This document shows, one piece after another, positions 12,437 to 30,499 of a DNA stretch of 49,806 bases; within the stretch, counting starts at the first letter, position 1; every line of letters starts with the position of its first letter. A program made the translations under genes and the position numbers. The stretch is from Actinocatenispora comari. Lineage in GTDB: Bacteria; Actinomycetota; Actinomycetes; Mycobacteriales; Micromonosporaceae. The stretch spans positions 1-49,806 of the forward strand of contig NZ_BOPO01000108.1 of the NCBI RefSeq assembly GCF_017312725.1. The letters are read 5' to 3'. The notes beneath the pieces are model-generated. The model did no database searches, had not been told where the DNA came from, and saw only the letters and a program-made list of their open reading frames with translations.

Positions 12437-14104
12437 TCACGAGGACGGCGGCGGGAAGTCCATCAGGCGCAGTTCGAGCATGGCGGCGAAGCGGGCGTCC
12501 GGGTCGGTCAGGTCGATGCCGCCGACCTCGGTGAGCCGCCGCAGCCGGTACCGGAACGTGTTCGGGTGGGTGTGCAGCGCCGCAGCGGCGGCGGCCACGT
12601 CGCCGAACGCGGTCAGCCACGCGTGCAGCGTCTCCACCAGGCAGGTGCGCCGCTTGGCGTCGTAGGCCAGCAGCCGCGCCACCGGACCGCTCGGTTGGTC
12701 GCCGCGGGCCGCGGCGAGGTCGGCCAGCTCGATCAGCAGCGCCTCGACGTGCACGTCGGCGATCCGGGCGACCCCGGTCGCCTCGCGACCGCGACGCAGT
12801 ACCCGCAGCGCCCGGTCGGCGCCGGCCCGGGACCGGGCCAACCCGGCGTGGTCGTGCGCGACCGAACCGACCCCGACCAGCACCCGGCGGCTGCTGCCGA
12901 TCCGGCCCAGAAACTCCCGGGTCACCCGTACCGCGCGCTGCTCGGCGTCGCCCCGGTCCGGCCGGCAGCCGACGATGCCGTACCCGACGTCGCCGATCAG
13001 CGCGACCGCCGACCGCGGGTACACCGCGCTCAGGTGCATCGAGAACGCGTCGGCCAGCCGCTGCCGCTCGGCGACCAGCTGGGCGTGCGTGGCGGTCAAC
13101 CCCTCGTCCTCGGCGCGGCCGACCGGCGTGAGCGCCAGGACCAGGCAGCTCTGCTCGGCCAGCCCGAGCCGGGTCAGCGCGTCCGCGGCGCCGGGCCCGG
13201 CCTCCAGCGCGGTCGCGACCAGGTCGGCGCGCAGCCGGCGTTCCACGTCGGCGCCGGCGCGCAGCCGCAGCAGGTGCAGCGCGACGAGCTTCGCCGCGTC
13301 CCGCAACGCCTGGGTGCGCTCGGCCGACAGCGGGGAGCGCACCGCCGCCCAGATGGAGCCGAGGATCTCGTCGCCGGCGCGGATCGCCAGCGCCACCCGG
13401 GGCAGCGCGATCTCCGGCGGCTCGACCGGCATCGGCGCCACCGCGATCGGGTCGTCGCTGCGGTACAGCTCGTGGAACACGCCGCGCTCCTCCAGGACGC
13501 GGGTGAACCGCTGCGGCACCTGGCGACCCAGGATCGTGGCGATCCGGGACGGGTCGGCCTCGTCCTGCCGACCGGAGAAGGCGAGCACCCGCGAGTTGCG
13601 GTCCTCGATCGTGACCGGCGCATCCAGCAGCGTGGAGATCGCGTTGGCCAGCGCGAACAGGTCGCCGGAGGGCATCCCGCCGAGCGTCTCCGGGCCGGTG
13701 TCGCCCACGTCGCCCTCGGCGATCAGCGACCGCAGCATCGCCGCGAGCTGGGTCCAGGACGCGCCGCGGGTCAGACCCAGCAGCGCCACCCCGGACCGCC
13801 GTACCGCGGCGGAGAGCCGCTCGTCGGGCGCCACCGGCGCGCGGACCACCAGCCCGGCCGCGCCGTGCTCACCCAGTTCGGTCAGCAGCGCGGCGATCTC
13901 CGCCGGCTCGTGCATCCCGACGCCGAGCACCAGCGCGCGCCGGGGCGTCGCCGGCTCGTCGAGCGGGTCGTGGATGACCACCCCGCCGACCTCGTCGACC
14001 GACTCGGGGTCGCCCGCGACGAGCTCGAGCAGGGTCGCGCCGAGATCCTCCAGGATCCGGCCCAGGCTAGCCCGCGGTCGTCCGGCGGTCACGGCGACAA
14101 GCAC
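12437..14104 (-). CDS. PucR-family transcriptional regulator
   Basis: A 555-residue regulator with the PucR layout: an N-terminal ligand-sensing domain (about residues 1-130), a GAF/GGDEF-like middle region with an MHLSAVYP segment, and a C-terminal HTH_30 domain ending the protein (VETLHAWLTAFGDVAAAAAA, then HTHPNTFRYRLRRLTEVGGI). PucR proteins commonly control nitrogen-compound catabolism (purines, amino acids). The GTG at 14104 is the upstream limit of the conserved domain. It is the last gene of the minus-strand D-amino-acid island, 126 bases after the racemase stop, so it is probably the local regulator, either read through or from its own promoter. Confidence 0.9.
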   Translation of the reverse strand: MLVAVTAGRPRASLGRILEDLGATLLELVAGDPESVDEVGGVVIHDPLDEPATPRRALVLGVGMHEPAEIAALLTELGEHGAAGLVVRAPVAPDERLSAAVRRSGVALLGLTRGASWTQLAAMLRSLIAEGDVGDTGPETLGGMPSGDLFALANAISTLLDAPVTIEDRNSRVLAFSGRQDEADPSRIATILGRQVPQRFTRVLEERGVFHELYRSDDPIAVAPMPVEPPEIALPRVALAIRAGDEILGSIWAAVRSPLSAERTQALRDAAKLVALHLLRLRAGADVERRLRADLVATALEAGPGAADALTRLGLAEQSCLVLALTPVGRAEDEGLTATHAQLVAERQRLADAFSMHLSAVYPRSAVALIGDVGYGIVGCRPDRGDAEQRAVRVTREFLGRIGSSRRVLVGVGSVAHDHAGLARSRAGADRALRVLRRGREATGVARIADVHVEALLIELADLAAARGDQPSGPVARLLAYDAKRRTCLVETLHAWLTAFGDVAAAAAALHTHPNTFRYRLRRLTEVGGIDLTDPDARFAAMLELRLMDFPPPSS

Positions 14105-14230
14105 GTCCCCGACGGTAGGGCGTGCGGCCGGGCCCGGGTTTGGGCGAGCATGACGAAATCCTAGGTGGACTTCGTCGACCCCGACAGGACCCGAACGTGT
14201 TCGAGTCCGGCCGGGGCGCCGCGACGAGGA

Positions 14231-15337
14231 TCAGGCCGCGATCCACTCGGTACGGATGGTGACCGCGTCGAGCGCCTCGGCGATCGGGTCGACGCCGATG
14301 CCCGGCCCGGTCGGTACCGCGAGCTGCCCCTGGTCGAGCCGGAACGGCTCGGTCACGTCCCGGGCGTAGTAGCGGTCCGAGGCCGACGTGTCGCCGGGCA
14401 GCGTGAAGCCGGGCAGCGCCGCGAGCGCCAGGTTCGCCGCCCGACCGATCCCCGACTCCAGCATCCCGCCGCACCACACCGGCACGTCGTGGGCCACGCA
14501 CACGTCGTGGATGCGCCGCGCCTCCAGGAACCCGCCGACCCGGCCGGGCTTGATGTTCACGATCGAACAGGCGCCCAGCGCGATCGCGTCCGCCGCGGCC
14601 CGCGCCGACACGATCGACTCGTCCAGGCAGATCGGTGTGGTCAGCTGCCGGGCCAGCTGGGCGTGGCCGAGCACGTCCTCCTCGTCCAGCGGCTGCTCGA
14701 TCAGCAGCAGGTCGAACGGGTCGAGCCGGGCCAGGTGCCGGCCGTCGGTGCGGTGGTAGGCGGTGTTCGCGTCTACCTGCAGGGCCACGCCGTCGCCGAA
14801 CCGTTCCCGTACCGCGCGGACCGGCTCGACGTCCCAGCCCGGCTCGATCTTCAGCTTGATCCGCAGGTACCCGGCGTCCAGGTAGCCGGCGACCGCGTCC
14901 AACAGCTGCGGGATCGACTCCATGATGCCCACCGACACGCCGCAGTCGACCCGGTCGCGTACCGCGCCCAGCTCCCGGGACAGCGGCACACCGCGGGCGC
15001 GCAGCTCGGCGTCGAGTACCGCGATCTCCAGCGCGGCCTTCGCCATCCGGTGCCCCTTGAACCCGGCCAGCGTCGGTGCCACCCGCGTCGCGTCCAGGTC
15101 ACGGATCCGGCCCAGCGTCGGCACCAGGAACCGGCGCAGCACGTCGGCGCACGCCGCCACGTACTCCGAGCTGTACAGCGGATCGCTCATCGCGACGCAC
15201 TCGCCCCAGCCCTCCGCCTCCGGCGTCACCACCCGCAGCAGCAGGATCTCGCGTACCTGCTGGGTGCCGAACGACGTCCGGAACGGCGCCACCAGCGGCA
15301 TCTCGACGGTGCGCAGCTCCACCCCGGTCAGCTTCAC
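14231..15337 (-). CDS. N-succinylamino acid racemase / o-succinylbenzoate synthase (NSAR/OSBS)
   Basis: A 368-residue enolase-superfamily enzyme. All expected residues are visible at positions that I recall for the Amycolatopsis N-acylamino acid racemase: Lys161 and Lys163 (KLK), metal ligands Asp189 (VDAN), Glu214 (IEQP) and Asp239 (LDES), and Lys263 (NIKPGR). Arg266, linked in the literature to racemase activity in NSAR/OSBS enzymes, is present. The reaction is 1,1-proton transfer racemising N-succinyl-amino acids, with OSBS as a possible side activity. No other menaquinone genes are nearby. The GTG start overlaps the GNAT stop (GTGA), indicating coupled translation with the acyltransferase. 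Confidence 0.93.
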   Translation of the reverse strand: MKLTGVELRTVEMPLVAPFRTSFGTQQVREILLLRVVTPEAEGWGECVAMSDPLYSSEYVAACADVLRRFLVPTLGRIRDLDATRVAPTLAGFKGHRMAKAALEIAVLDAELRARGVPLSRELGAVRDRVDCGVSVGIMESIPQLLDAVAGYLDAGYLRIKLKIEPGWDVEPVRAVRERFGDGVALQVDANTAYHRTDGRHLARLDPFDLLLIEQPLDEEDVLGHAQLARQLTTPICLDESIVSARAAADAIALGACSIVNIKPGRVGGFLEARRIHDVCVAHDVPVWCGGMLESGIGRAANLALAALPGFTLPGDTSASDRYYARDVTEPFRLDQGQLAVPTGPGIGVDPIAEALDAVTIRTEWIAA

Positions 15338-16257
15338 GAATGCCCTCCTGTGTCGACGATGTAGCAGTCGCCGCGGTCGAACCCGCGGATGCGGCCACCG
15401 GCCGCGAGCAACCCACCGAGCACCTCGCGGACCGCCTCGCGCCAGCGCGCCGCGCAGGCCGGATCGGACCCGCGCAGCCCCTCGATGTCGCGCGGGACCG
15501 CCACCAGCACCGTCGGCGTCCCGGCGGTCGCCGGCTCCGGTTCACCGGTGGCAGAGCGGCGCAGCGCGTACCGGGCGCCTGCCGCCTCCTCGGCCGCCGC
15601 GTCGAACCGGCCCGGCGTACCGGCACAGGCCGCGACCACGCCCGGATCCTCCAGCCGCCACTCGATCAGCAGCCGGTCGGTCTCGTCGGCGCCGTTGAGC
15701 CCGTCGTGCATCGGCCCGTAGAAGTTCGCCAGGTACTCCACCGGGCGCGCGCCGAGCTTGCCGATGTTGAAGTACGCGTTGCGCCCCACCAGCGGATCGT
15801 AGGTCCACGCGATCTCGGCGATCCCGTGCCCCAACGCCCACGCCCGCTGGTGCACCTTCAACGCGAAACCGATGCTGCGCCCCCGGGTACGCGGCGAGAC
15901 CCCGGCGATGTGGCTGTGCAGCGACCGGTGCGCCGGCGGGGCGAAGAACCCGACGCAGGCCCCCACCAGCTCGTCCCCGTCGAACGCGCCGGCGATGTAG
16001 TTGCCCGCCTTCGACATCGCGCGCACCAGCTCCACGCTGAGCGGCATGCTGTCCGGGCCGAACCGCCAGATCCGCTCGTACAGCTCGCACATCCGCTGCA
16101 GCTCGGCCATCCCGTCCAGGGCCCGCACGTACACCCCGGCCGAGGCCGCCGCCGCCTCGGCGGCCGCGATCGCCGCCGTCTCGGTACGTGCCGCCGACCC
16201 GTCCGCCGCGGCACCGGGATGCCGCGCCGCCCCGGCCAGATCCGTCCCCGCGCTCAT
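15334..16257 (-). CDS. GNAT-family N-acyltransferase (predicted D-amino acid N-succinyltransferase)
   Basis: A 307-residue GNAT protein. The acyl-CoA-binding core spans about residues 80-160 (AGAFDGDELVGACVGFFAP, then GVSPRTRGRSIGFALKVHQR). It is followed by the AWTYDPLVGRNAYFNIGKLGA motif seen in the GNAT proteins that accompany NSAR genes. In the Geobacillus pathway such an enzyme N-succinylates D-amino acids with succinyl-CoA. The ATG at 16257 follows GGAGGAGCG, which lies within an intergenic repeat. The stop overlaps the racemase start. The Ala-rich first 50 residues are not conserved, and the true acyl donor is inferred only from context. Confidence 0.88.
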   Translation of the reverse strand: MSAGTDLAGAARHPGAAADGSAARTETAAIAAAEAAAASAGVYVRALDGMAELQRMCELYERIWRFGPDSMPLSVELVRAMSKAGNYIAGAFDGDELVGACVGFFAPPAHRSLHSHIAGVSPRTRGRSIGFALKVHQRAWALGHGIAEIAWTYDPLVGRNAYFNIGKLGARPVEYLANFYGPMHDGLNGADETDRLLIEWRLEDPGVVAACAGTPGRFDAAAEEAAGARYALRRSATGEPEPATAGTPTVLVAVPRDIEGLRGSDPACAARWREAVREVLGGLLAAGGRIRGFDRGDCYIVDTGGHS

Positions 16258-16406
16258 CGACGCTCCTCCTTCGTCGGAGCTTCGAGGAGGCACCGGAGCG
16301 CACGATGCTCATGGTTCGCTCGCTCACGCTCGCTCATCGGAGCGCCCTCCTTCGTCGGAACCCCGATGCGGCTCGGCATCCGGTTCGTTCGCCGTCGCCC
16401 GCTCAC
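16254..16406 (-). CDS. Possible 50-codon leader ORF made of two intergenic repeat copies
   Basis: A GTG at 16406 overlaps the M20 stop (GTGA). The frame runs through two repeat copies, including an internal ATG (16337) with its own GAAGGAGG, to a TGA that overlaps the GNAT start (ATGA). The encoded peptide is Arg/Glu-rich with no known family. It may only carry ribosomes from M20 into GNAT, a coupling role rather than a product. Confidence 0.35.
   Translation of the reverse strand: MSGRRRTNRMPSRIGVPTKEGAPMSERERANHEHRALRCLLEAPTKEERR
16258..16405 (-). repeat. Intergenic repeat, two tandem copies, carrying ribosome-binding sites
   Basis: Two diverged copies (about 16258-16320 and 16335-16405) fill the gap between the M20 and GNAT genes. 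On the minus strand each has a GCGAACC element and then a GACGAAGGAGG element just before an ATGAGC start; the second copy also has CCGCATCGGGGTTCC. A third copy lies at 21933-22003 before dppF. The repeat thus provides a strong Shine-Dalgarno sequence and a start codon. Confidence 0.75.
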
Positions 16407-17488
16407 CGCTGCTCCTCGCGCAGGAGGTCGGCGACCAGCTCCCGGAGCAGGGCCGTACGCCGGGGCAGCTCGTCGAGGCGCACGTGCTCGTGGTCGGCAT
16501 GCGCGCCGCCGCCGACCGCGCCCAGCCCGTCCAGCGTCGGGGTGCCGACGCCGGCGGTGAAGTTGCCGTCCGAGGCGCCGCCGACCGCCGCCTGGCGCAG
16601 CGGGCCGACACCGAGCCGGTCGGCGACGGCGACCGCCCGCGCGTACAGGTCGGCGGAGGCGTCGGCGGCCAGCGGTGGCCGGTTCGGCCCGCCGGTCACC
16701 ACGATCCGCGCCTCGGCCAGCCGCGGCGTCAACGCGTGCATCGCCTTGTCGACCCGCTCCTGCTCGGCGGCGCTGCGGACCCGCACGTCGACGGCGAACC
16801 GGCCGTGCGCGGCGACGGTGTTGGTGGTGGTACCGGCCTCGATCCGGGTCGGCGTCACCGTCGTACCGGCCGCCGCGTCACCCAGCTCGGCGACCGCGAG
16901 CACCTGGTACGCCGCCTCGATCGTCGCGCTCACCCCGCGTTCGGGTTCCAGCCCGGCGTGCGCGGCGCGCCCCTCGATCGCCACCTCGTACAGCGAGACG
17001 CCCTTGCGCTCGGTCTTCAGCGCGCCGCCGTCGGCGGACGCCTCCAGCACCAGGGCGGCGGCGCAGCCGCGCGCCTCGTCCTCGATCAGCGACCGCGACG
17101 ACGGTGAGCCCAGCTCCTCGTCCCCGGTCACCAGCAGCGTCACGCCGTCGGGATCGGGCAGCGCGGCGAGCGCGTGGAACGCCATCACCACCCCGGCCTT
17201 CATGTCGAAGCAGCCCGGCCCGCGCAGCACCCCGTCACGCACCTCGAACGGGTGCGTGGCCAGCGATCCCTGCGGCCACACCGTGTCGTGGTGGCCGAGC
17301 ACCAGCACCCGCGCTCGGGCACCGAACCGCCAGCGCAGATGGGTGCGCCCGGCCAGCACGATCCGCTCCGGTTCGGCGCCCAGCAGCCGGGTGCCCAGCG
17401 CCGCCACCAGTTCGGCGCTGCGGGCGACCGCGTCGAGATCGTCGGACGGGGACTCGCAGCGCACCAGCTGCTCGATGTCGGCGATCAT
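16403..17488 (-). CDS. M20-family metallohydrolase (predicted N-succinyl-amino acid desuccinylase)
   Basis: A 361-residue M20 enzyme of carboxypeptidase G2 / ArgE type. Metal and catalytic residues are visible: His66 and Asp68 (GHHDTV), Asp95 (GCFDMKAG), the Glu124-Glu125 pair (TGDEELGS), the Glu of LVLEASADG and the final His in AHADHEHV. The inserted dimerisation domain is at about 165-275 (GRAAHAGLEPERG). Next to NSAR and GNAT, the parsimonious reaction is hydrolysis of N-succinyl-L-amino acids to L-amino acids plus succinate. The ATG at 17488 overlaps the stop of the S9-S12 fusion gene (ATGA), giving tight coupling. A general aminoacylase role cannot be excluded. Confidence 0.92.
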   Translation of the reverse strand: MIADIEQLVRCESPSDDLDAVARSAELVAALGTRLLGAEPERIVLAGRTHLRWRFGARARVLVLGHHDTVWPQGSLATHPFEVRDGVLRGPGCFDMKAGVVMAFHALAALPDPDGVTLLVTGDEELGSPSSRSLIEDEARGCAAALVLEASADGGALKTERKGVSLYEVAIEGRAAHAGLEPERGVSATIEAAYQVLAVAELGDAAAGTTVTPTRIEAGTTTNTVAAHGRFAVDVRVRSAAEQERVDKAMHALTPRLAEARIVVTGGPNRPPLAADASADLYARAVAVADRLGVGPLRQAAVGGASDGNFTAGVGTPTLDGLGAVGGGAHADHEHVRLDELPRRTALLRELVADLLREEQR

Positions 17489-20400
17489 CCGGACACCTTC
17501 GGGGTCGCGCGGGCACCGAAGTGCAGGTACGGCTCGCCGCTGGGCAACCGGTAGAACACCGCCGACATCCACGTCTGGGTACCGGGTGCGCGCAGCGCGA
17601 ACAGGTCCTCGGTGACCGGCACCAGCGGGTACTCCTCGGTCTGGTCGGCGGCGAGTTCGGCCAGCGGGCCGGTGACGGTGTGCCGCAGCCGCAGCTCCCC
17701 GTCGGCCCGGAACACCTCGAGCCGGGCGCTGGCCCGCTCGTAGACGCCCACGTGCCGGCCCGGGTCGTACGACGGGGGCCGCGCCGGCGGGGCGAACGGT
17801 GCCGGCATGGCCACCCCGGCCAGTTCGGCGAAGATCTCCCGGTACAGGTCCTCGTACAGGTCGCGGGTGTTGCCGCCGTTGGTCAGCAGGGTGACGGCGA
17901 CCCCCTGCTCGGGCAGCAGCCGCAGGAACGCCGACTGCCCGATCGTGTTGCCGTCGTGGCCGATCAGCCGGTGTCCGTCCCACCCGAACCGGATCCAGCC
18001 GAGCCCCCACGAGTCGCCCAGCGGGTACGGGTCGGGTACGTCGGTCTGGTGCTCGGTCATCGCCGCCGCGCACCGCTCGCCCAGCACCCGGGTGCCGTCG
18101 GCGGCCAGGCCGCCGGACAGGTGCATCGCGGCGAACGCGAGCACGTCGGCGGCCGAGGCGGTGATCAGCCCCGCCGGCCCCATCGAGCGCGGCAGCCCCC
18201 ACACCGGCGCCGGCTGCGGATCGGCATCGCCCTCGGCCACGTGCCCCACCGCGGCGCGGAACAGCAGCGCCTCCTCCGGCAGGGTCGTGGTGTGGGCGAG
18301 GCCCAGCGGGGCGAACAAGCGTTCCCGCAGTGCCTGGTCCCAGGTCTGCCCGGTGAGCTTCTCGATCACCCGGCCGGCGAGCACAAACCCGGCGTTGCAG
18401 TAGGAGAACGTGACGCCGAGCGGATGGTTCTGCCCGACCGCGGCGAGCTCCTCGACGTAGCGGGCCACGCAGTCGTCGCCGCGGCCGGTGTCGGTGAACA
18501 CGTCCCCGTCGACGCCGCTGGTGTGGGTCAGCAGCTGCCGCATCGTCACCTGCTTCGCCACCTCGGGGTCGCCGAGCCGCAGCTCCGGCAACACCTCGGC
18601 GACCGGGGCGTCGAGCTCCAGCTTGCCCTCGTCGACCAGCTGCATGACCACCGTGGCGGTCCACACCTTGCTGATCGAGCCGATCTGGAACAGCGTGTCG
18701 TCGCGTACCTCCACGCCGGTGGCGACGCTGGTGACGCCGTGGTGCGCGACCACCGGATCCTCGCCCAGGCGCAGGATCCCCAGCGTGGCGCCCGGTACCT
18801 TGTGCGCGGCGGCCAGCTCGGTCAGCCGGCGCTGCCAGTGCGCGGCGTCCAGCGCCGGTCGGCCGCGCCGCGCCGGCGGGGCCGCGTACCGCTCGACCCA
18901 GTCGACGACGCGGCGGTTCCAGTCGGCCCGGTGCGACGGCGCGCCGTCCAGGATGAACAGGTGCGACTCGTCCGGGTAGCGGACCAGCCGGGTCGGTACG
19001 CCCCGGGCCCGCAGCGCGCCGAACCACTGCTCGGCCTGCCCGACCGGGCACCGGTCGTCGTTCTCGCCCTGCACCAGCAGCGTCGGCGTCCGCACGTCCT
19101 GCACCCGGGTCAGCGGGGACAGCCGCGCGTAGCGGTCCGCGTCCTGCCACGGCACCCCGGACAGCTCCGCGGCGGCCAGGTAGTACCCCAGGTCGGAGGT
19201 GCCGGTCATGCTGGTCAGGTCGGCGACCACGCCGCCGGCGACCGCCGCGGCGAACCGCTGGTCGCGGCTGGTCAGGTAGCAGGTCATGTAGCCGCCGTAG
19301 CTGTAGCCGGTGACCGCCAGCCGGTCCGGGTCGGCCAGCCCCTCGGCGACCAGATCGTCGATCGGGGAGAGGAAGTCCGCGGCGTCCGCCTCGCCCCAGG
19401 CGCCGATCGCGGCGGTCAGGAACGCCTCACCGTAGCCGTCGCTGCCGCGCGGGTTGAGCAGCAGCACCGCCCAGCCGCGGTCGGCGAGCACCTGGTGGTA
19501 CAGGTGGGCCGGGTCGGCGGCGCCGTTCCACGCGTTGTGCGGGCCGCCGTGGATGTCCAGCAGCAGCGGCAGCGGGCCGGAGCGTTCCCGGTCGCGTACC
19601 AGCCAGCCGTGCAGCACGGTGCCGTCCGGTGCGGTGAACTCGCGCTCCTCGCGCGGGTAGCGGACCGCGTCGGCGGGGCAGTGCTCGGTGTGCACGGTGA
19701 TCTCTCCGGTGGCACGGTCGACGGTGCCGACCTCGCCGTACGAGGTCGAGGTGCCGACCACGAACGCCACCGTGTCACCGACCGCGGAGACGCCGGCGAC
19801 GTTGCGGTCGCCGCCGACCAGCAGCCGCGGCGCGCCGCCGGCCAGCGGAACCTCGTAGAGATGAGTGGATCCGTTGTCCCGCACGCAGAACAGCACGCCG
19901 GTGTGGTCGGCCGTCGGCTGCGGGAGCGCTCCCGGATAGCCCGGCCCGCCGGGCATCACGTTGCGATCCAGCGGCCCGGCCAGGTTCAGCGGCTCGCCGC
20001 CCTCCAGCGGGATGCGCAGCAGTCCCGCGTTGCCCGCCCTGGTGTCGGTGCGGCCGACGGCGAGCAGCGCGTCGCCGGCCGGCGTGAAGCCGACCGTACC
20101 GAGCTGCCAGTCGGCGCCGCCGACCAGCACCGGCTTCGCGTTGCGCGCCACCGCATCCACCAGGTACGCACCGATGCGCAGGGTCAGGTCCGCGTCGGCG
20201 TCGCGCGCGGCGGGAAACGCCAGCCGGGTGCCGTCCGGCGACCAGGCCGGATCGCCGGCATGCCAGTCGCCGCCGGTGACGCGCCGCACCTCCCGGGTCG
20301 CCACGTCGACCACGTGCACGTGGGTACGCAGGGTGCGCAGCAGCCCCGCCCCGTCGGCCTTGCCGTCCAACCGGTCGGTCACGATCGGCGCCCGCTGCCG

Positions 20401-22003: not shown

Positions 22004-23905
22004 TCGTGATCCCTCCACCGAGATGCGGGCGTCGGTGGTGTCGGCGCCGGAGTCGGTGACCGGGTGCCAGCAGGCGAGCCGGTGGTCGTCGCCGACCGGC
22101 GTCAGCTGCGGATCCGCCGACCGGCACTCGTCCGTGGCGTACCGGCAGCGCTGCGCGAACGCGCACCCGGCCGGCAGCGCGGTCGGCTCCGGTGGCCGGC
22201 CGGCGATCACCCCCAGCGGCCGGTCGCGGTCGGCCGCGAGGTCGGGTACCACCGCGAGCAGCGCCCGGGTGTACGGGTGCCGGGCCCGCTCGGTGAGCTC
22301 CGCCGCGGGCAGGTCCTCGACGATGCGCCCGGCGTACATGACCAGGACCCGGTCGCAGGTCTGGGTCACCACGGCGATGTCGTGGCTGATCAGCAGGACC
22401 GCCGCGGCGGTGTCCCGGCGTACCTGGTCGAGCAGCCGCAGCACCTGGCGCTGCACCGTGACGTCCAGTGCGGTGGTCGGCTCGTCGGCGATGATCAGCC
22501 GGGGCGTACCCATCAGCCCCATCCCGATCATCGCCCGCTGCCGCATGCCGCCGGAGAACTCGTGCGGGTACTGGTGGGCCCGCTTCGCCGGCGCCGGCAC
22601 CCGCACCTGCGCCAGCCGCTCGACCGCCCGGGCCAGCGCACCGCGCCGGCCGAGGCCCTGGTGCTCCTGCGCCACCTCGGCCAGCTGCCGGCCGATCCGC
22701 CGGGTCGGGTTGAACGAGGTGGTCGGGTCCTGGAACACCATCGCCAGCGAGGTGCCGAGCAGCGTGCGCAGCTCCCGCTCCGGGGCGGACAGCAACGGGC
22801 GGCCGGCGAACTCCAGCCGGTCGGCGGCCACCACACCGGGCCGTTCGATCAGCCGGGCGGCCGCGAGCGCGGTGAGGCTCTTGCCCGAGCCCGACTCGCC
22901 GACCACGCCGACCGCCTCGCCCGCGCCCAGCGTGAACGTCACGCCGCGCACCGGCTCGGCCCAACCCACCGCGGTCGGGAACCGTACCGACAGGCCCTCG
23001 ACCCGCAGCACCGGATCGGTGTCGTCGGCCCCGGCCGGCACCGGCGCGGCCGGTGCGGACGTGCGCGACAGCAGCCGGCGCAGCGGCGTACGGTGCCCCA
23101 GCGCCGCGGCGATCGTCTCGCCGCACAGGTTGAACGCCAACCCCGCCACCACCACCGCGACACCCGGGCCGAGCGCCGCCGCCGGGTTGGTGTAGATCCG
23201 GTTCAGCCCGTCGCCCAGCAACCGACCCCAGTCGTACGACGGCGCCTGCACCCCGATGCCCAGGAACGACAGGCCGGCGAACGACAGCAGTGCCGCACCG
23301 GCGCCGATCGTCGCGTTGACCACCAGCGGCTCGGCGATGTTGGGCAGCACGTGCCGCACCAGTACCCGCAGCCGGCCGACGCCGGCGATCCGGGCCGCCG
23401 CCACGTAGTCGCGGCCGGCGACCGACGCCGACAGGGTCTGCGCGACCCGGGCGAAACCCGGTGCGGTGGCGAACCCGATCGCCAGCACCGCGCCGGTGGT
23501 ACCCACGCCGAAGACGACCGCGAAGAACAGCGCGAGCAGCAGCCCCGGGAACGCGACCGCGATGTTGACGACGGCCACGATCACCCGGCCGGCGCGGCGC
23601 GGCAGCACCGCCGGGGCGGTACCCAGCAGGGTGCCGACGGTGACGCCGATCAGCATCGCGAGCAGCGCCAGCCCGATCGACAGCCGGGTCGCCACCAGCG
23701 TCCGGGCGAACAGGTCGCGGCCCAGCGCGTCGGTACCCAGCAGGTGCGCGCCGGACGGGCCCTGCTGGATGGCGTCGGTGTCCACCGCGGTCGCCTGGGC
23801 GCCCCAGACGAGCGGCGCCGCCACCGCCAGCGCCAGTACGAGCAGCAGCAGGACCACCGCGCACACCCCGAGCGGGGTGCGCAGGAGCGCGCGCAGCCGG
23901 CGCAT
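22001..23905 (-). CDS. Peptide ABC transporter permease-ATPase fusion (DppC-DppD)
   Basis: A 634-residue fusion. Residues 1-285 are a DppC-type permease with six hydrophobic segments and the EAA-like loop AARIAGVGRLRVLVRHVLPN. After a short linker, residues 320-630 are a DppD-type ATPase: Walker A GESGSGKS, signature FSGGMRQR, Walker B LIIADEPTTALD, switch His ISHDIA and the C-terminal Cys motif CAFAQRCRYATDEC. Such permease-ATPase fusions are known in actinobacterial peptide and nickel importers. The ATG at 23905 overlaps the dppB stop (TGATG). The ATPase presumably pairs with DppF. Confidence 0.93.
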   Translation of the reverse strand: MRRLRALLRTPLGVCAVVLLLLVLALAVAAPLVWGAQATAVDTDAIQQGPSGAHLLGTDALGRDLFARTLVATRLSIGLALLAMLIGVTVGTLLGTAPAVLPRRAGRVIVAVVNIAVAFPGLLLALFFAVVFGVGTTGAVLAIGFATAPGFARVAQTLSASVAGRDYVAAARIAGVGRLRVLVRHVLPNIAEPLVVNATIGAGAALLSFAGLSFLGIGVQAPSYDWGRLLGDGLNRIYTNPAAALGPGVAVVVAGLAFNLCGETIAAALGHRTPLRRLLSRTSAPAAPVPAGADDTDPVLRVEGLSVRFPTAVGWAEPVRGVTFTLGAGEAVGVVGESGSGKSLTALAAARLIERPGVVAADRLEFAGRPLLSAPERELRTLLGTSLAMVFQDPTTSFNPTRRIGRQLAEVAQEHQGLGRRGALARAVERLAQVRVPAPAKRAHQYPHEFSGGMRQRAMIGMGLMGTPRLIIADEPTTALDVTVQRQVLRLLDQVRRDTAAAVLLISHDIAVVTQTCDRVLVMYAGRIVEDLPAAELTERARHPYTRALLAVVPDLAADRDRPLGVIAGRPPEPTALPAGCAFAQRCRYATDECRSADPQLTPVGDDHRLACWHPVTDSGADTTDARISVEGSR

Positions 23906-24903
23906 CAGGCCTCCCGGATCGTCGAACGCGGATCGAGCACTCCGAGCAGTACGTCCACGACCAGGTTGACCAGCAGCACGCCGACCCCGTAGACGAGCAC
24001 GATGCCCTGCACCATCGGGTAGTCCTTGGCCAGGATCGACGAGACGATCTTCGCGCCCAGGCCTGGCCAGGCGAACACGTTCTCGACCAGGATGGTGCCG
24101 GCCACCATCGAGGTGAGCATCAGCCCGGCGAGCGTCAGCGTCGCGGTCACCGCGTTCGGCAGCGCGTGTCGCAGGTAGATCCGGCGCGGCCGCAGCCGTT
24201 TCGCCCGTGCGGTGCGGACGAAGTCCTGGCCGAGCACCGCGAGCATCTCCACCCGCACGATGCGCGCCAGCACCGCGGCCGGGCCGACCGCGAGCGCCAC
24301 CACCGGCAGCACGAACGACAGCGGCCCCTGTTGGCCGGCGACCGGGAACCAGTGCAGGTTCACCGCGAACAGGTACACCAGCGCCACCGCGAGCAGGAAC
24401 TCCGGGATCGCGGCGAGCACCACCGCGCTCACCGCGAACCCGAGCTCGCCGCCGCGGCGCCGACCGCCCCGGGTCGCCACCGCCATCGTCACGCCCAGCG
24501 GCACCGCGATCAGCAGTACCAGCAGGAACGCCAGGACCGCGAGCTGCGCGGTGGCCGGCAGCCGCTGGCCGATCACGCTGGCCACCGACTCGTTGCTGGA
24601 CACCGACACACCCAGGTCGCCGTGCACCAGGCCCTGCAGGTAGTGCCAGTACTGCACCGGCAGCGGGTCGTCCAGGCCCAGCAGCTCCCGCCGCGCCCGG
24701 ACCACCGAGGCCGGCGCGTTCATCCCCAACGCCGCCCGTACCGGATCGCCCGGCACCAGGTGGATCATCAGGAACGACGCGGTCACCAGTACCCACAGCG
24801 AGATCGCGAACCGGCCGAGGCGGCGCAGCGCGAACAGCAGCCAGGGGCTGCGCCACGCCCGTACCGCGGTGGCCGGCAGCGCCGGTCGCAGCTCGGTGGT
24901 CAT
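23905..24903 (-). CDS. Peptide ABC transporter permease (DppB type)
   Basis: A 332-residue inner-membrane permease with six hydrophobic segments. The N-terminal family motif is WVLVTASFLMIHLVPGDPV, and the EAA-type cytoplasmic loop is DFVRTARAKRLRPRRIYLRHALPNA. It forms the translocation channel with the DppC half of the next gene. The ATG at 24903 lies 10 bases after the stop of the binding-protein gene with GAGGA upstream, and its own stop overlaps the following start, so binding protein, DppB and DppC-DppD are one translational unit. Confidence 0.94.
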   Translation of the reverse strand: MTTELRPALPATAVRAWRSPWLLFALRRLGRFAISLWVLVTASFLMIHLVPGDPVRAALGMNAPASVVRARRELLGLDDPLPVQYWHYLQGLVHGDLGVSVSSNESVASVIGQRLPATAQLAVLAFLLVLLIAVPLGVTMAVATRGGRRRGGELGFAVSAVVLAAIPEFLLAVALVYLFAVNLHWFPVAGQQGPLSFVLPVVALAVGPAAVLARIVRVEMLAVLGQDFVRTARAKRLRPRRIYLRHALPNAVTATLTLAGLMLTSMVAGTILVENVFAWPGLGAKIVSSILAKDYPMVQGIVLVYGVGVLLVNLVVDVLLGVLDPRSTIREA

Positions 24904-24913
24904 TCTCTGGTCC

Positions 24914-26497
24914 TCACTGGTACATGCGGATCGAGGCCGGGTCGATGCCGTCGTTGGAGACGAACTTCGCGTTCTTGCCGAACGTCGGCACCATCGAGTC
25001 CACATAGGACACCACGTCGACGTGCTGGTAGAGCGACTTCTCGGCCGCCGCCCAGTCGCCGCAGCCCTTGTTCCCGGCCATCGTCATGGCCTGCTGCACG
25101 TGCTTGGTGTAGTCGGCGTTGTCGATGTGCGAGAAGTTCGTGCCCTTCGGCGGTACCGCACCGGAGACGAACGGGACGATGGTGCTCGGCAGCCCGATGG
25201 TGATCGGCGACATCGACACGTCCCAGTTGCCGGAGCTGAACAGCACCTCGTTCAGCCCGGTACTGTCGATCGCCTTGAGCTTGACGTCCACGCCGAGCTT
25301 GTGCCAGGTCTGCTGCACCAGCTCCGCCGCGGCCGCCGCCGTCGACCCGATCCCGGTCTGGTAGAGCACGGTCAGCGACAGCTTCTTGCCGTCCTTGACC
25401 CGGGTACCGCCCGGCCCCACCGTCCAGCCGGCGGCCGTCAGCCCCGCCTTCGCCGCCGCCGCGTCGAACCCCGGTACGTTGCCCTGCACGGTGTCCGCCC
25501 GGCACGGGTCGGGTGTCACGGTCACCAGGCCGGTCGCGGTCTTGCCGTGCCCGTCGGTGAGCACCTTGCCCACCCGCGGCAGGTCCAGCGCCTGCACCAG
25601 CGCCTTGCGTACCGCCTCGTCCTTGGTCGCGCGGCCGGCCGCCTGGTTGAAGAACAGCTGCCCGAGCGGCGCCCGTACGTCGGCGTGGAACAGCTTCTGC
25701 GCCGACAGCCGCTGCTGGTCCGGGCCGTTGACCGACACCGCGTTCAGCTCCCCGGACAGCATCAGGTTCGCCGCGGTCGTCTCGTTGGGGATCACCTTCA
25801 CGACGACCTTGTCCGGCAGCCCCTTCTGCTTCGGGTTCCAGTCGCCCGGACCCCAGGTGAACGCCTTGCGCCGGGTCAGCGTGTAGTGGTCGTTGGGTAC
25901 CACCTCGGAGATCTTGAACATGCCGGTACCGGCGCCGCCCTTGGCGAGCAGCTTCGGGTCGTGCAGGCCCTTGCCGCACACGATCGACACCGAGCCGATG
26001 TTCAGCAGCAGGAACGGGTCCGGGCTGCCGCTGGTGACCGTCACCGTGTGGCTCGCCTCGTTCGCGGTGGCCTTGGTGCCCGGCATCACCCACAGCCCGG
26101 TCAGCGGCGACTTGTTCTTCGCATCGCCCAGGTAGCTGATGTTGTCGGCCACGTCCTTGGCGGTCAGCGGCGACCCGTCGTCGCAGGTCAGCCCGCGGCG
26201 CAGGGTGAACGTCGCGGTACGGGTGTCGGCCGTCCACTTCGCCGCCAACCCCGCCTGCACCGACCCGTCGTTCTGCACCTCGACCAGCCGGCTGTACAGG
26301 AAGCGGTCCACCCCGCGGGTCACCGACAGCGTGGTCAGCGTCGGGTCCAGGTTGCCCGGGTCGGTGGCCACCGACATGGTGAACGTCTTGCCGTCGGCCA
26401 GCGTGCCGCCCGATCCGGCGGCACCGCCGGTCGAGCAGCCGGTGAGCGCGAGCGCACCCACCCCGAGCAGACACACGACGGTACGTGCGGGCCTCAT
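24914..26497 (-). CDS. Peptide ABC transporter substrate-binding lipoprotein (family 5)
   Basis: A 527-residue extracytoplasmic binding protein. The signal peptide ends in the lipobox ALTGC (Cys21). The mature part has the SBP_bac_5 fold, including DPGNLDPTLTTLSVTRGV, ATFTLRRGLTCDDGSPLTAKDV and GTGMFKISEVVPNDHYTL. Family 5 proteins bind peptides, opines or nickel; the peptide-type neighbours favour peptides here, possibly ones containing D-residues. The ATG at 26497 follows GGAGGTGGCCG and overlaps the stop of the class-A-like hydrolase (ATGA). Confidence 0.94.
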   Translation of the reverse strand: MRPARTVVCLLGVGALALTGCSTGGAAGSGGTLADGKTFTMSVATDPGNLDPTLTTLSVTRGVDRFLYSRLVEVQNDGSVQAGLAAKWTADTRTATFTLRRGLTCDDGSPLTAKDVADNISYLGDAKNKSPLTGLWVMPGTKATANEASHTVTVTSGSPDPFLLLNIGSVSIVCGKGLHDPKLLAKGGAGTGMFKISEVVPNDHYTLTRRKAFTWGPGDWNPKQKGLPDKVVVKVIPNETTAANLMLSGELNAVSVNGPDQQRLSAQKLFHADVRAPLGQLFFNQAAGRATKDEAVRKALVQALDLPRVGKVLTDGHGKTATGLVTVTPDPCRADTVQGNVPGFDAAAAKAGLTAAGWTVGPGGTRVKDGKKLSLTVLYQTGIGSTAAAAAELVQQTWHKLGVDVKLKAIDSTGLNEVLFSSGNWDVSMSPITIGLPSTIVPFVSGAVPPKGTNFSHIDNADYTKHVQQAMTMAGNKGCGDWAAAEKSLYQHVDVVSYVDSMVPTFGKNAKFVSNDGIDPASIRMYQ

Positions 26498-27417
26498 CGG
26501 CCACCTCCAGCCAGATCCGGAACGGGTACGGGTTGTTCCTGGCGCAGCTGCTCGACCGCGAGATGCCCGGCGGTACCGATCGCGGCGTCGATCGCCGGCT
26601 GCCGGTGTGCCAGGCTCGCCGCCCGGGTGAACACGGCGACCGCGTACGCCCGCCCGTCCGGGTAGGTGACCACGCCGGCCTCGTTGCGGACCGCCGGCAG
26701 CGTGCCGGTCTTCGCCGCCACCGTGACTCCGTCGGGGAAGCCGCTGCTGAGCCGGTGCGGCCAGATCTGCTCGGCCATGATCGCCCGGACCTGCGCGCAC
26801 GCCTCGGGCGACGCGGCCCGGTCGGTCCAGATCGCGTCCAGCAGCGCGGTGATCTCGGCCGGCGTCGACGCCGTGGTACGGGTCGGGTCCAGCACCGCGA
26901 GCCGCCACACCTGCTCGGCCGACGCCGCCTCCAGTGCCGCGTCGGGGTCGGCGCCCGGCTCGATTCCCAGGTCGTGCGCCACCGAGGCGAACAGGTCGCC
27001 ACAGCAACCGCGGATCCGGGTGTGCGTGAGGCCGAGGTCGGCCAGTACCGCGTCGACCGCCGCCTGCCCGACCCGGTGGAACACCACGTCGGTGGCGGCG
27101 TTGTCGCTCATCGTCAGCATGTTGCGGGCCAGGTCGCGCCAGCTCATCTGCACGTCGTCGGCGCACCCGGCGGTACCGATGCCACCGATCCGGTAGGGCG
27201 CCGTCACCGTCGCGCGCTCGCGCGGATCGAGCCGGCCCGCGGCCACCTCCCGCGCGTACGCCACCGCCACGGGGATCTTGAACACCGAGGCGAGCACCAC
27301 CGGCTCGTCGGCGGCCACCGCGACGCTCGGCCCGTCCGGTACCCCGATCTCGCGGGCGTGCACGAACCCGGTGGCGCCGGCGGCGGTGAACACCGACCGG
27401 ATCTCGGCGGAGATCAC
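26494..27417 (-). CDS. Class-A beta-lactamase-like serine hydrolase lacking the general-base Glu
   Basis: A 307-residue serine hydrolase with the penicillin-recognising motifs in order: SVFK (Ser44, Lys47), SDN (104-106) and KTG (236-238). At the spacing where class A beta-lactamases carry Glu166, 36 residues after the SDN serine, there is Gly in CCGDLF, and no ExxLN motif is visible. It is therefore unlikely to be an efficient beta-lactamase and more likely a D-peptide-processing or esterase-type enzyme. No signal peptide is evident, so it should act in the cytoplasm on imported substrates. The GTG start overlaps the upstream S12 stop (GTGA). Confidence 0.87.
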   Translation of the reverse strand: MISAEIRSVFTAAGATGFVHAREIGVPDGPSVAVAADEPVVLASVFKIPVAVAYAREVAAGRLDPRERATVTAPYRIGGIGTAGCADDVQMSWRDLARNMLTMSDNAATDVVFHRVGQAAVDAVLADLGLTHTRIRGCCGDLFASVAHDLGIEPGADPDAALEAASAEQVWRLAVLDPTRTTASTPAEITALLDAIWTDRAASPEACAQVRAIMAEQIWPHRLSSGFPDGVTVAAKTGTLPAVRNEAGVVTYPDGRAYAVAVFTRAASLAHRQPAIDAAIGTAGHLAVEQLRQEQPVPVPDLAGGGR

Positions 27418-28799
27418 GACGACACCCGCGGATCGGCCCGGCCGGTGTGCAGGTACCGGGCCGGCCCGGAGCCGTTGCCGACGAACGCGTGCGGCAGGTG
27501 CATGCCGTGCTCCGGCTCGCGCGGCAGCAACGTGTCCCCGCGCCACCCCACCAGCTCCACCGTGGTCACCGGCTCGCCCAGCTCGACGAAGATGCCCTTC
27601 GGGGTGCGCTCCAACCAGATTCGGCCCTCGCCGTCCTGGCTGACCACCTGCTCGGCCACCGACGAGGAGTACGTGCCGACGAAACGGCTCGCGTCCACCG
27701 CCGGTGGCGCCTCCGCCGGTACCGGCATCGCCGGCAGCGTCACGCCGGCCAGCTCGCGCAGCACGGTGCCGACGATCTCGGTGTACAGCGGCATCGGGTT
27801 GCCGCCGTTGGTCAGCAGCGCCACCGCGACGTTCGCGCCCGGGACGATCCGCAGGAACGCGTTCTGCCCGATGGTCCCGCCGTCGTGGCCGACCACCGGG
27901 CCGCCGGGGAAGTCGAACAGCTCGAAGCCCAGCCCCCAGGCGTCGCCCATCAGCCCCAGGTCGGGCAGCTCCACCTGGCGCTCCCGCATCGCCCGGGCGC
28001 TCGCCTCGCTCAGCACCCTCGTACCGTCCGGGGCGGTGCCGTCGGCCAGGTGCATCCGGGCGAAGCCGAGCAGGTCGCGGGCCCGCATCGTCAGCATCGA
28101 CCCGGCCGGCGCGTTCGACGGCGCCAGCGCCCACACCGGCGCCGGTACCGGATCCGCGTCGGGGGAGGGTGCGATGTGCCCGACCGCGGCCCGGTACATG
28201 ATCGCCTCGTGCGGGCCGTGCGCGGTGTGCGTCAACCCCAGCGGCGTGATCAGCTGCTCGCGCAGGCACTGCTCGTACGGCTTGCCGCGCAGCACCTCCA
28301 CCAGCCGGCCCAGCACGCAGAACCCGGCGTTGTTGTACGAGAACATCGCGCCCGGCGCGAACAGCTGCGGGTCGTCCGCCAGGGTCGCGACGAACTTCTC
28401 GACGCAGTCGTCGCCGCGGCCGGTGTCGGTGAAGATGTCACCCTCGAACCCGGCGACGTGGCACAGCAGCTGCCGTACGGTGATCGCCGCGGCCGCGTCC
28501 TCGTCGGCGATCCGGAACTCCGGCAGGTGGCTGCGTACCGTCGCGTCCAGCTCCAACCGGCCCTCGTCGACCAGCTGCATGATCATCGTCGCGGTCCACA
28601 GCTTCGTGATCGACCCGACCTGGAACACCGAGTCGGCCGTCGCCTCGACCCCGGTGGCCTTGCTCAGTACGCCCGACGCGGTGTCGACGACCTCGTCGCC
28701 CACCATGATCGCCACGGCCGCCGCGGGAACCCTGTTGTCGGCGAGCAGCTTCGGCAGCCGCTCCTCGACCCACCCGCCGACCTCTGACAGCTGGGACAT
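27414..28799 (-). CDS. S12-family serine hydrolase (D-aminopeptidase / beta-lactamase-related)
   Basis: A 461-residue cytoplasmic serine hydrolase. The S12 motifs are SITK (Ser63, Lys66), YNN (155-157) and GHDGGT (about 320). The C-terminal 100 residues form a beta-rich domain like that of D-aminopeptidases. S12 enzymes include D-aminopeptidase, D-Ala-D-Ala carboxypeptidase and esterases, so motifs alone do not fix the substrate. It is paralogous to the C-terminal half of the S9-S12 fusion. ATG 28799 is preceded by GGAGCGGAC. Downstream genes overlap it, so it heads the importer operon. Confidence 0.9.
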   Translation of the reverse strand: MSQLSEVGGWVEERLPKLLADNRVPAAAVAIMVGDEVVDTASGVLSKATGVEATADSVFQVGSITKLWTATMIMQLVDEGRLELDATVRSHLPEFRIADEDAAAAITVRQLLCHVAGFEGDIFTDTGRGDDCVEKFVATLADDPQLFAPGAMFSYNNAGFCVLGRLVEVLRGKPYEQCLREQLITPLGLTHTAHGPHEAIMYRAAVGHIAPSPDADPVPAPVWALAPSNAPAGSMLTMRARDLLGFARMHLADGTAPDGTRVLSEASARAMRERQVELPDLGLMGDAWGLGFELFDFPGGPVVGHDGGTIGQNAFLRIVPGANVAVALLTNGGNPMPLYTEIVGTVLRELAGVTLPAMPVPAEAPPAVDASRFVGTYSSSVAEQVVSQDGEGRIWLERTPKGIFVELGEPVTTVELVGWRGDTLLPREPEHGMHLPHAFVGNGSGPARYLHTGRADPRVSS

Positions 28800-28957: not shown

Positions 28958-29031
28958 GCTCTGCTCAGCGGTGCTCGGCTCAGGGTTCTCGGCTCGGCGG
29001 TGCTCGGTTCAGGGGTGCTCGGTTCAGCGGG
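28958..29031. repeat. Five degenerate 15-bp tandem repeats
   Basis: Units of about 15 bp with the consensus GCTCGGYTCAGSGGT run from 28958 to 29031, one of them 14 bp long. The array covers the 3' end of the deacylase gene (stop at 29026-29024) and the start of the intergenic region to the S12 gene. No hairpin or known element is evident. Confidence 0.7.
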
Positions 29032-30499
29032 GTTCGGCGCGCAGCGGCCGGCCCGGGTAGGCGTCGGGCAGCAGCCCGCCGTCCCGCACCACCGGCTCCC
29101 CGCCGACCAGCAGGTGCACCACGCCCACCGAGGGACGTACGGAGTCCAGATACGTGGCGGTGTCGGTGATCCGCTCGGGATCGAGCACCACCACGTCCGC
29201 GTCCGCGCCGACGCCGAGGTGCCCCTTGGCCCGTGCCGCCGGCGCCGTCTCGTCCAGCACCCGCGCCGGCAGGTACGCGCAGCGTCGGAACGCCTCCGCC
29301 CAGCTCCAGGTGCCGGACTCGCGCACCATCGTGCGCAGCGACCGGGCGAACGTGCCCGCGGTACGCGGATGCGTCGAGCCGCCGGCCGGCAGCGGCCACT
29401 GCCGTGACTCCATGACCCCGTCGCCCCACAGCACCGGCATCGCGTCGCTCGCCACGATCGCGTCCGGGTACGCCAGCGAGCGCCGCAGCAGCGCCCGGTC
29501 GGCCTCGTCGCGCTCGTCCAGGAACTCCACGATGCACTCCGCGCCCGGATCGCGTTCCCGTACCTCCCGCAGCCGCGCCTCGTCCGCGATCCGCTCCCCG
29601 GTCTCGACCAGTACCAGGTTCGAGGCGGTGATGCCCCAGGCGGACAACCGCTCCGGCGCCAGGAAGTACGCGCCGACGCTGGTGCTGCCCGCCCCGTACG
29701 GGTAGGCCTCGACGGTGACGCGCGAGCCCGCCGACCGGGCCGCATCCAGCATCGCCAGCACCCGGTCGATGTGCCGGCGCGAGGTGCTGTTGACGTGGCA
29801 GTGGTGCATCGCCGCACCGGTCTCCGCCGCCGCGATCGCGATCTCCTCGGACCCGTCGACCGGTGTGGTGGGGTCCGCCTCGACCAGCTCCCGGACGTGC
29901 GTGTACGTCGGGGCCCCGGCCGCCGCGGCCAGCCGTGCCACGGCGAGGAACTCGGCCGGGTCGGTGCGCGGCGCGTACCCGAGCAGCACGCCGATGCCGA
30001 GCGCGCCGTCGGCCAGCTCCCGTTCCAGCAACCCCAGCCAGCGACGACGTTCCGGGGCCGACGAGGTGCGCTGCCAGCCCGGATCGCCCAGCAGCGCCAG
30101 CTGCGTCGCCAACCGCGCGTCCGGCTCGACGCCCAGGTGCGCCTGCGCGCGGGCCGCACCCCAGGACGCGGAGAACCCGTAGTGGAGCGGGCGACCCGCC
30201 GCCGCGGCGTCCGCGTACGCCCGCGCCACCGGCAGCAGCCCGGCCTCCAGGTCCAGCGCGGTGGTCACCCCGTCCAGCGCCTGCAGCCGCTGGCCGGCGA
30301 TCGAGTGCACGTGGCTGTGCAGGTCGACGAACCCCGGCCCGACGATGCGCCCGGTCACGTCCAGCACCGTCGCGCCCGCCGGCACGGCCAGCCCGGTACC
30401 GACCGCGGCGACGGTGCCATCGCGGACCAGCACGTCGGCGACCCGGTCGGTGCCGGTACCGGGATCGATCACCCGCCCGTTGCGCAACAGTGTCTGCAT
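29024..30499 (-). CDS. Amidohydrolase, N-acyl-D-amino-acid deacylase family
   Basis: A 491-residue amidohydrolase of the D-aminoacylase group. It begins with the beta-sandwich (LLRNGRVIDPGTG), then VDLHSHVH supplies the first metal His pair. DGALGIGVLLGYAP, YTHVREL, HHCHVNST, EAYPYGAGST and VASDAMP follow in the family order, and a second beta-sandwich closes the protein (GVGADADVVVLDP). D-aminoacylases release D-amino acids from N-acyl-D-amino acids. The family segment GVTT... continues here as ALDLEAG rather than the Cys-containing version I recall from the Alcaligenes enzyme, so the specificity may differ. It is the first gene of the island, 224 bases upstream of the S12 gene. Confidence 0.88.
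   Translation of the reverse strand: MQTLLRNGRVIDPGTGTDRVADVLVRDGTVAAVGTGLAVPAGATVLDVTGRIVGPGFVDLHSHVHSIAGQRLQALDGVTTALDLEAGLLPVARAYADAAAAGRPLHYGFSASWGAARAQAHLGVEPDARLATQLALLGDPGWQRTSSAPERRRWLGLLERELADGALGIGVLLGYAPRTDPAEFLAVARLAAAAGAPTYTHVRELVEADPTTPVDGSEEIAIAAAETGAAMHHCHVNSTSRRHIDRVLAMLDAARSAGSRVTVEAYPYGAGSTSVGAYFLAPERLSAWGITASNLVLVETGERIADEARLREVRERDPGAECIVEFLDERDEADRALLRRSLAYPDAIVASDAMPVLWGDGVMESRQWPLPAGGSTHPRTAGTFARSLRTMVRESGTWSWAEAFRRCAYLPARVLDETAPAARAKGHLGVGADADVVVLDPERITDTATYLDSVRPSVGVVHLLVGGEPVVRDGGLLPDAYPGRPLRAEPR

Follow-up and report, generated by a model that had tools for sequence, protein, structure and literature searches.

What does a run of twelve same-strand genes, in which a peptide importer stands beside several peptidase-like hydrolases and an N-succinylamino acid racemase (NSAR), do for Actinocatenispora comari of the family Micromonosporaceae? 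The window analysed in this study is the whole contig NZ_BOPO01000108.1 (49,806 nucleotides) of a 7.96 Mb genome that is 96.5% complete, and the run occupies positions 12437-30499 of its minus strand. Judging from the gene families, their conserved residues and their neighbourhoods in other actinobacteria, we consider it fairly probable that these genes make up a PucR-regulated catabolic operon for D-amino-acid-containing peptides, which would be imported, cleaved in the cytosol and inverted from D to L. All twelve genes are open frames according to a codon-usage gene call and Pfam, and they are as follows.

12437..14092, minus strand: PucR-type regulator with a C-terminal PucR helix-turn-helix and a GGDEF-like middle (Pfam HTH_30 3.7e-21, GGDEF_2).
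14231..15337, minus strand: NSAR, with a GTG start (MR_MLE; nearest solved chain 1sja).
15334..16257, minus strand: GNAT acyltransferase of the NSAR trio (Acetyltransf_1 22.5 bits, cut-off 20.7).
16403..17488, minus strand: M20 metallopeptidase/deacylase (Peptidase_M20 and M20_dimer; nearest solved 1cg2).
17485..20820, minus strand: S9-S12 fusion of a prolyl-oligopeptidase-type S9 half and an SxxK S12 half (Pfam Peptidase_S9 and Beta-lactamase).
20883..21932, minus strand: OppF-type ATPase (ABC_tran and oligo_HPY; NCBIfam OppF/DppF-type models match below their cut-offs).
22001..23905, minus strand: OppC-OppD fusion of permease and ATPase (BPD_transp_1, ABC_tran and oligo_HPY in a single open reading frame, ORF).
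23905..24903, minus strand: OppB-type permease (BPD_transp_1 8.7e-35).
24914..26497, minus strand: family 5 solute-binding lipoprotein (SBP_bac_5 6.7e-53; LALTGC lipobox by eye).
26494..27417, minus strand: BlaB-like penicillin-recognising protein with SxxK/SDN/KTG (Beta-lactamase2; best solved relative 2wuq, 9.6e-22).
27414..28799, minus strand: stand-alone S12 peptidase (Beta-lactamase 1.8e-67).
29024..30499, minus strand: amidohydrolase of the PRK09061 family (Amidohydro_3; NF006560 652 bits, cut-off 340).

In the direction of transcription the order is amidohydrolase, S12, BlaB-like protein, solute-binding protein (SBP), OppB, OppC-OppD fusion, OppF, S9-S12, M20, GNAT, NSAR and PucR. At five of the eleven junctions the neighbouring genes share 1 or 4 bases: S12/BlaB-like (4 bp, GTGA), BlaB-like/SBP (4 bp, ATGA, given the SBP start at 26497), OppB/OppCD (1 bp, TGATG), S9-S12/M20 (4 bp, ATGA) and GNAT/NSAR (4 bp, GTGA). 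Since the remaining six junctions are gaps of 10, 62, 68, 138, 145 and 224 bp, a single transcript of all twelve genes is plausible. The SBP start was reassigned to the ATG at 26497, which provides a lipoprotein-type signal as well as the ATGA overlap. The OppC and OppD domains share one frame in the window, and, as judged by ORF length, the same fusion was observed in the other module loci inspected. A preliminary description of this DNA had reported the twelve same-strand genes with their ATGA, GTGA and TGATG overlaps and a family 5 peptide importer; both hold, the importer through the Pfam families SBP_bac_5, BPD_transp_1 and ABC_tran with oligo_HPY. Its labels for the S12, S9-S12, M20, GNAT, NSAR and PucR genes also agree with Pfam, and NSAR and the two S12 proteins keep the residues checked below, whereas its class-A-like hydrolase and N-acyl-D-amino-acid deacylase have to be renamed.

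The same description had stated that its proposal would fall if the neighbouring genes were not conserved together in other genomes. Searched with the S9-S12 protein, named genomes yielded 306 relatives, of which the best 80 were kept; these correspond to 80 loci, all in Actinomycetota by record title or tree label and from 19 genera by title, in a set biased towards close relatives of the query. Some record names disagree with the position of the protein in the S9-S12 tree (for instance, Streptomyces sp. SID13031 falls among Kribbella). Using set identity thresholds and 10 kb flanks, we recorded same-strand presence of OppF in 71 loci, of OppB, OppCD and SBP in 69 each (all four importer genes together in 69), and of S12 in 65, followed by the BlaB-like gene (50), GNAT (45), NSAR (44), PucR (41), M20 (40) and the amidohydrolase (6). 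Many of the missing NSAR genes lie just past the 10 kb flank, and 23 of the 24 genomes checked for 25 loci possess it. When 13 loci were extended, NSAR, GNAT, PucR and the amidohydrolase were found on the same strand and in the same block in 13/13 and M20 in 12/13, so that same-strand NSAR rises to at least 57 of the 80 loci (44 + 13) and the amidohydrolase to 19. Outside these 57, three loci (L109, L119, L130) have an NSAR gene near the end of another contig in matching orientation (L229-L231). The genes just outside the block in the window (TetR, ADH, DUF6221, PNGaseA) reach at least 50% identity in none of the 80 loci; among 98 NSAR loci of the family only ADH reaches 50%, in one same-genus locus (L010), and at the edge of the same-genus locus L009 a PNGaseA fragment matched but stayed under the coverage filter. 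A chance neighbourhood was rejected because these flanking genes are not kept (0/80), against 69/80 for the importer genes.

Gene order is much less uniform than gene content. Two Microbacterium loci (L166, L179) match the window gene for gene, with all twelve in its order and uninterrupted by any other called gene; L176 and L184 are collinear with the window except for one extra S12-type gene after the amidohydrolase, and L009 and L010, from the two congeners that have the module, keep the order of the window. Ten loci (7 Amycolatopsis, 3 Streptomyces) read AmdH-M20-GNAT-NSAR-PucR-MFS-BlaA-S12-BlaA-SBP-OppB-OppCD-OppF-S9S12, and an eleventh differs by lacking the MFS gene, so that all twelve genes are reordered in eleven loci. 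Eight others read GNAT-NSAR-S12-BlaA-SBP-Opp-S9S12, the side of the importer on which NSAR is found, upstream or downstream, changes with the lineage, and 36 distinct same-strand gene strings were counted among the 80 loci, contig ends and cut flanks accounting for part of them. An MFS transporter between PucR and S12 is found in 11 of the 13 extended loci (L216-L228). The refuting condition therefore did not hold: the neighbours stay linked well beyond the family, even where their order has changed, and a linkage that survives such reshuffling is good evidence for joint function.

Some sister loci carry further genes. An M19 dipeptidase gene (nearest solved 3id7, renal-dipeptidase type) is located between OppF and S9-S12 in ten loci. 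The second module of Amycolatopsis sp. NBRC 101858 (L127) has no NSAR next to it, the NSAR of that genome adjoining the first module. The genes that follow it instead encode a protein nearest to DauA, a catabolic D-arginine dehydrogenase (6.4e-54), a PF01042 (RidA-type) protein and an amidohydrolase. Such recruitment of other D-amino-acid or dipeptide enzymes into sister loci is an independent pointer to D-amino acids.

The racemase is the clearest assignment of the trio. Its nearest solved chain, 1sja, is an N-acylamino acid racemase (E 8.2e-178), and K163, D189, E214, D239, K263 and R266 are kept in 129/129 aligned rows including the window, rows that contain same-organism duplicates between two collections. 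It therefore carries the two catalytic lysines (K163, K263) and the acidic metal ligands D189, E214 and D239 that define the subfamily of NSAR and o-succinylbenzoate synthase (OSBS); Arg266 is a second-shell residue that favours racemase activity. Dipeptide-epimerase models score the protein far under their cut-offs. A lysine pair in NSAR-type enzymes and racemase chemistry are reported in PMC8142540. The GNAT protein is weak by sequence, its predicted structure (pLDDT 91.3) resembles GNAT acetyltransferases, and a relative is found in 95 of the 98 NSAR loci of the family; PMC8762209, which cites Sakai et al. 2006, describes a GNAT that forms the N-acetyl and N-succinyl derivatives of D-Phe, D-Tyr and D-Trp. 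The M20 protein has carboxypeptidase G2 (1cg2, 3.8e-35) as its nearest solved relative. The three genes adjoin one another at 14231-17488, which is the arrangement of the NSAR/GNAT/M20 route. Among 73 NSAR loci that lack the module, 13 have an M20 gene in the NSAR gene run and 11 have a D-aminoacylase-like amidohydrolase there, the latter call being based on ~30% identity to the window amidohydrolase, with the NCG motif inspected in three. An S66 LD-carboxypeptidase gene immediately precedes GNAT-NSAR in L025 (13673-14599), and a 44%-identical match occurs in L020; these hint that other D-amino-acid sources may feed the trio.

The hydrolases that would supply the trio belong largely to the penicillin fold. 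In the stand-alone S12 protein, S63, K66, Y155, N157, H305 and G307 are kept in 71/71 rows, giving intact SxxK, YxN and HxG motifs, and its solved relatives are 7spn, 6ksu (presumably the cyclase SurE), the penicillin-binding protein (PBP) cyclase Ulm16 (8fek), the DD-peptidase 1cef and the alkaline D-peptidase 4y7p. The S9 half of the fusion is nearest to 8wt1 and keeps the triad S507/D588/H620 in 90/90 fusion rows, window included; its S12 half, related to 7spn, 6ksu, 8fek and 4y7p, with 1cef also among its solved relatives, keeps S715/K718/Y807/N809/H955 in 90/90 and is 49% identical to the stand-alone S12. For the fusion, the predicted structure reached a pLDDT of 77.7, a middling confidence, and no further use was made of it. 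A simple hydropathy scan detected no signal peptide or transmembrane segment in the module hydrolases. Membrane-anchored D-stereospecific resistance peptidases carry a C-terminal membrane part; the S12 and S9-S12 proteins show no hydropathy peak above 1.6 and thus no such part, and the hydrolases of the block look cytosolic.

In a tree of the S12 units, the stand-alone proteins form one clade (100/100) and the fused and free S12 halves the other, which suggests that the S12 duplication preceded the spread. On this tree the fused state must have been gained or lost more than once; fused rows from L131, L148, L166, L171 and L172 (failed motif cut) and L125 (no usable row) were left out, so that the fused sample contains no Microbacterium. 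S12-half genes standing free of an S9 half were noticed in L080, L086, L060 and L048. Those of L048 and L060 branch outside the fused forms, and the loci L080 and L086 also contain an M19-like gene (33-35% identity). One S9-half relative (G077:C83:15421-17355) contains a single in-frame TGA and is possibly a decaying or split gene.

The third penicillin-fold protein, first described as a class-A-like hydrolase, keeps S44, K47, S104, N106 and K236 in 69/69 homologues and T237 and G238 in 50/50; ExxLN, the motif with the deacylating Glu166, is present in 0/69. A class A beta-lactamase was rejected on this ground, and the protein is closest to 2wuq, the beta-lactamase regulatory protein BlaB, itself a PBP. 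The amidohydrolase was likewise relabelled in part: the family stands, with the HxH metal ligands H61 and H63 invariant in the module rows covering them and 3gip, an N-acyl-D-glutamate deacylase, as its nearest solved relative (3.1e-25). D-aminoacylases possess a bridging Cys, within VGNCG; the module rows covering that position have DLEAG, with Glu85 in its place, and the protein is a distant relative of N-acyl-D-glutamate deacylase and not a canonical N-acyl-D-amino-acid deacylase. The NCG form was seen in separate amidohydrolases of L057, L066 and L068, neighbours of other NSAR genes.

Taken together, the genes can be read as a sequence of steps. The lipoprotein-fed family 5 ABC importer would carry oligopeptides, its presumed substrate, into the cytosol, where the stand-alone S12, the S12 half of the fusion and possibly the BlaB-like protein would cut at or beside D-residues, if they are D-specific as their relatives suggest. 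The S9 half would remove ordinary L-residues, helped in some sister loci by the M19 dipeptidase. GNAT would N-succinylate (or N-acetylate) the freed D-amino acids, NSAR would interconvert the N-acyl-D and N-acyl-L forms, and M20, if specific for the L-form, would deacylate it and so pull the sequence to L-amino acids. The amidohydrolase probably handles N-acylated or atypical ends, and PucR would regulate the operon. The earlier proposal that the whole set scavenges D-residue peptides is strengthened by neighbours that are conserved together, intact NSAR residues, the unlikely MenC role discussed below and D-enzymes in sister loci, the enzymes of the block being presumed to act on D-residues.

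Several observations weigh against this catabolic reading. NSAR is far wider than the module: at E <= 1e-70 it occurs in 97/200 family genomes, some with only a roughly 45% relative, compared with 29/200 (own included; four matched one half only) for the S9-S12 protein at E <= 1e-150. Because NSAR is so much more widespread, the trio is not dedicated to the module. Of the four genomes from the window's genus, one (G012) has neither protein. Same-strand NSAR is missing from 23 of the 80 S9-S12 loci, some of them contig ends or unextended; Catellatospora (3 loci, with NSAR elsewhere in the genome), L110, L127, L152, L180 and L185 are exceptions to the linkage as far as seen, and in Arthrobacter (L125, L135, L136) an NSAR of 57-59% lies on the opposite strand. 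The NCBIfam equivalog TIGR01928 for o-succinylbenzoate synthase matches the racemase at 308 bits (cut-off 201), as expected for the NSAR/OSBS group; the nearest solved relative of M20 is a glutamate-type carboxypeptidase and not a desuccinylase; the S12 family also holds esterases and beta-lactamases; and the DauA-like replacement of NSAR is a single case (L127).

Scavenging or recycling of murein peptides is the rival that survives best, though we judge it unlikely. The importer would take up stem peptides, from which the enzymes would free L-Ala, D-Glu and D-Ala, a logic like that of the dpp-ykf operon of Bacillus subtilis. That both S12 units have the DD-peptidase 1cef as a solved relative fits it, as do the S66 gene that adjoins GNAT-NSAR in L025 and its match in L020. 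The enzymes specific to such an operon are missing from the block: no S66 LD-carboxypeptidase, NlpC/P60 or L-Ala-D/L-Glu epimerase was assigned among the twelve, nor were such enzymes recognised in the recurrent extra-gene clusters of the module loci, single extra genes having been read by eye only. The kinetics listed for NSAR-type enzymes in PMC8142540 concern N-acetyl-Met and N-succinyl-phenylglycine. Peptidoglycan fragments, which the preliminary description had offered as a substrate, were not sustained, and hydrophobic D-residue peptides, such as non-ribosomal peptides, are favoured over murein stem peptides because the murein-specific enzymes are missing.

It is very improbable that the block serves the catabolism or detoxification of beta-lactams or D-residue peptide antibiotics, with the penicillin-fold proteins opening or binding the drug and the rest using the pieces. 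Two S12 units plus a BlaB-like penicillin-binding fold could be understood in this way, and M19 enzymes can hydrolyse some beta-lactams. However, the BlaB-like protein fails the class A test, the hydrolases look cytosolic, where a beta-lactam defence is of little use, and NSAR together with the importer points to nutrition. BlaB of Streptomyces cacaoi, described in PMC3610667 as a PBP that helps control beta-lactamase, speaks for the rival.

Least probable of all is a general L-peptide operon in which NSAR, GNAT and M20 do something else, for example using N-acyl-amino acids or making o-succinylbenzoate. L-peptide use does commonly involve OppABCDF and S9 peptidases, an OppCD gene (at least 55% identity) occurs in only 15 of the 98 family NSAR loci, and TIGR01928 matches NSAR. 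This reading would nevertheless need a coincidence to explain why NSAR, two SxxK peptidases, M19 and, in one case, a DauA-like dehydrogenase repeatedly lie together, and the genome has the futalosine marker MqnC. As for o-succinylbenzoate, a menaquinone marker search of the 96.5% complete genome placed the futalosine-route MqnC over its cut-off (474.6 bits) and found no MenD or actinobacterial MenC model over cut-off; the racemase was judged unlikely to be this genome's MenC for this reason.

Catabolism of D-residue peptides thus remains the preferred reading, and a bolder form of it can be put forward tentatively, as somewhat less likely than its opposite. The module may be a mobile pathway by which actinobacteria consume D-residue non-ribosomal peptides intact, among them the antibiotics of other bacteria, through whole import, cytosolic shredding by a single-chain L/D peptidase (S9 for L, S12 for D) with two more penicillin-fold proteins, and D-to-L inversion; duplication and fusion would then have turned the penicillin fold to nutrition and not to wall synthesis or resistance. 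If the catabolic reading is true, NSAR, a well-known case of promiscuity (NSAR/OSBS), would gain a physiological home, and the question of what actinobacteria do with D-amino-acid peptides would gain a testable answer: some may feed on them. It also predicts new D-specific cytosolic peptidases, the fused L/D peptidase among them.

Regarding mobility, the distribution of the S9-S12 protein is patchy, since at E <= 1e-200 it was found in only 2 of the 396 phylum genomes drawn, the own genome and one other, against the 29/200 of the family at E <= 1e-150. The S9-S12 tree places the window's genus beside Microbacteriaceae rows (SH-aLRT 95, quick method) and apart from the other Micromonosporaceae; transfer is likely but not proven.

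Beyond the block, the window contains a PNGaseA-family gene at 30943-32664 on the minus strand (PF12222 7.4e-60 with PNGase_A_C), which shares one base with a DUF6221 gene (30602-30943); PNGaseA is a type of peptide N-glycanase best known from eukaryotes. By the island, at 33882-37188, an alpha-galactosidase/alpha-glucosidase-like gene, a DeoR-type regulator and a divergent ribokinase-like kinase, all assigned below NCBIfam cut-offs, suggest possible sugar use.

Compared with known systems, the trio and the single families are already established, and on weak evidence the assembled module (importer, S9-S12, twin S12 units, BlaB-like protein) appears new, its layout not having been found described in the open-licence literature, a search that left subscription papers mostly outside and used some broad queries. 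The murein-peptide operon dppA-E/ykfABCD of B. subtilis also combines a peptide ABC importer, peptidases and an enolase-superfamily racemase or epimerase. It differs in that the racemase here is of the N-acyl-amino-acid type and not a dipeptide epimerase, LD-carboxypeptidase and NlpC/P60 are not among the twelve, and SxxK serine peptidases with an S9-S12 fusion stand in place of the metallo D-aminopeptidase DppA. The alkaline D-peptidase 4y7p and the PBP-type cyclase Ulm16 (8fek) share the S12 family and its SxxK/YxN/HxG motifs; the S12 proteins here have no signal or membrane part, belong to a catabolic operon, and one copy is fused behind S9. The NSAR/GNAT/M20 route, the M20 member of which takes the deacylation step, offers the same three families in adjacency, with the tested catalytic residues of NSAR intact here. 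In PMC8762209, citing Sakai et al. 2006, this route is an irreversible conversion of D- to L-amino acids. Our locus differs from it in placing the trio within an operon with its own importer and hydrolases that could supply D-amino acids, and in an M20 protein nearest to carboxypeptidase G2. BlaB (2wuq), a protein of S. cacaoi according to PMC3610667, is the closest solved relative of the penicillin-recognising protein, which keeps SxxK, S-N and KTG and lacks ExxLN. The protein here, in contrast, sits with D-amino-acid genes and not with a beta-lactamase and a LysR-type activator, and in 12 of the 13 extended Amycolatopsis-type loci (L216-L228) it is accompanied by a second BlaB-like paralogue of 45-51% identity.

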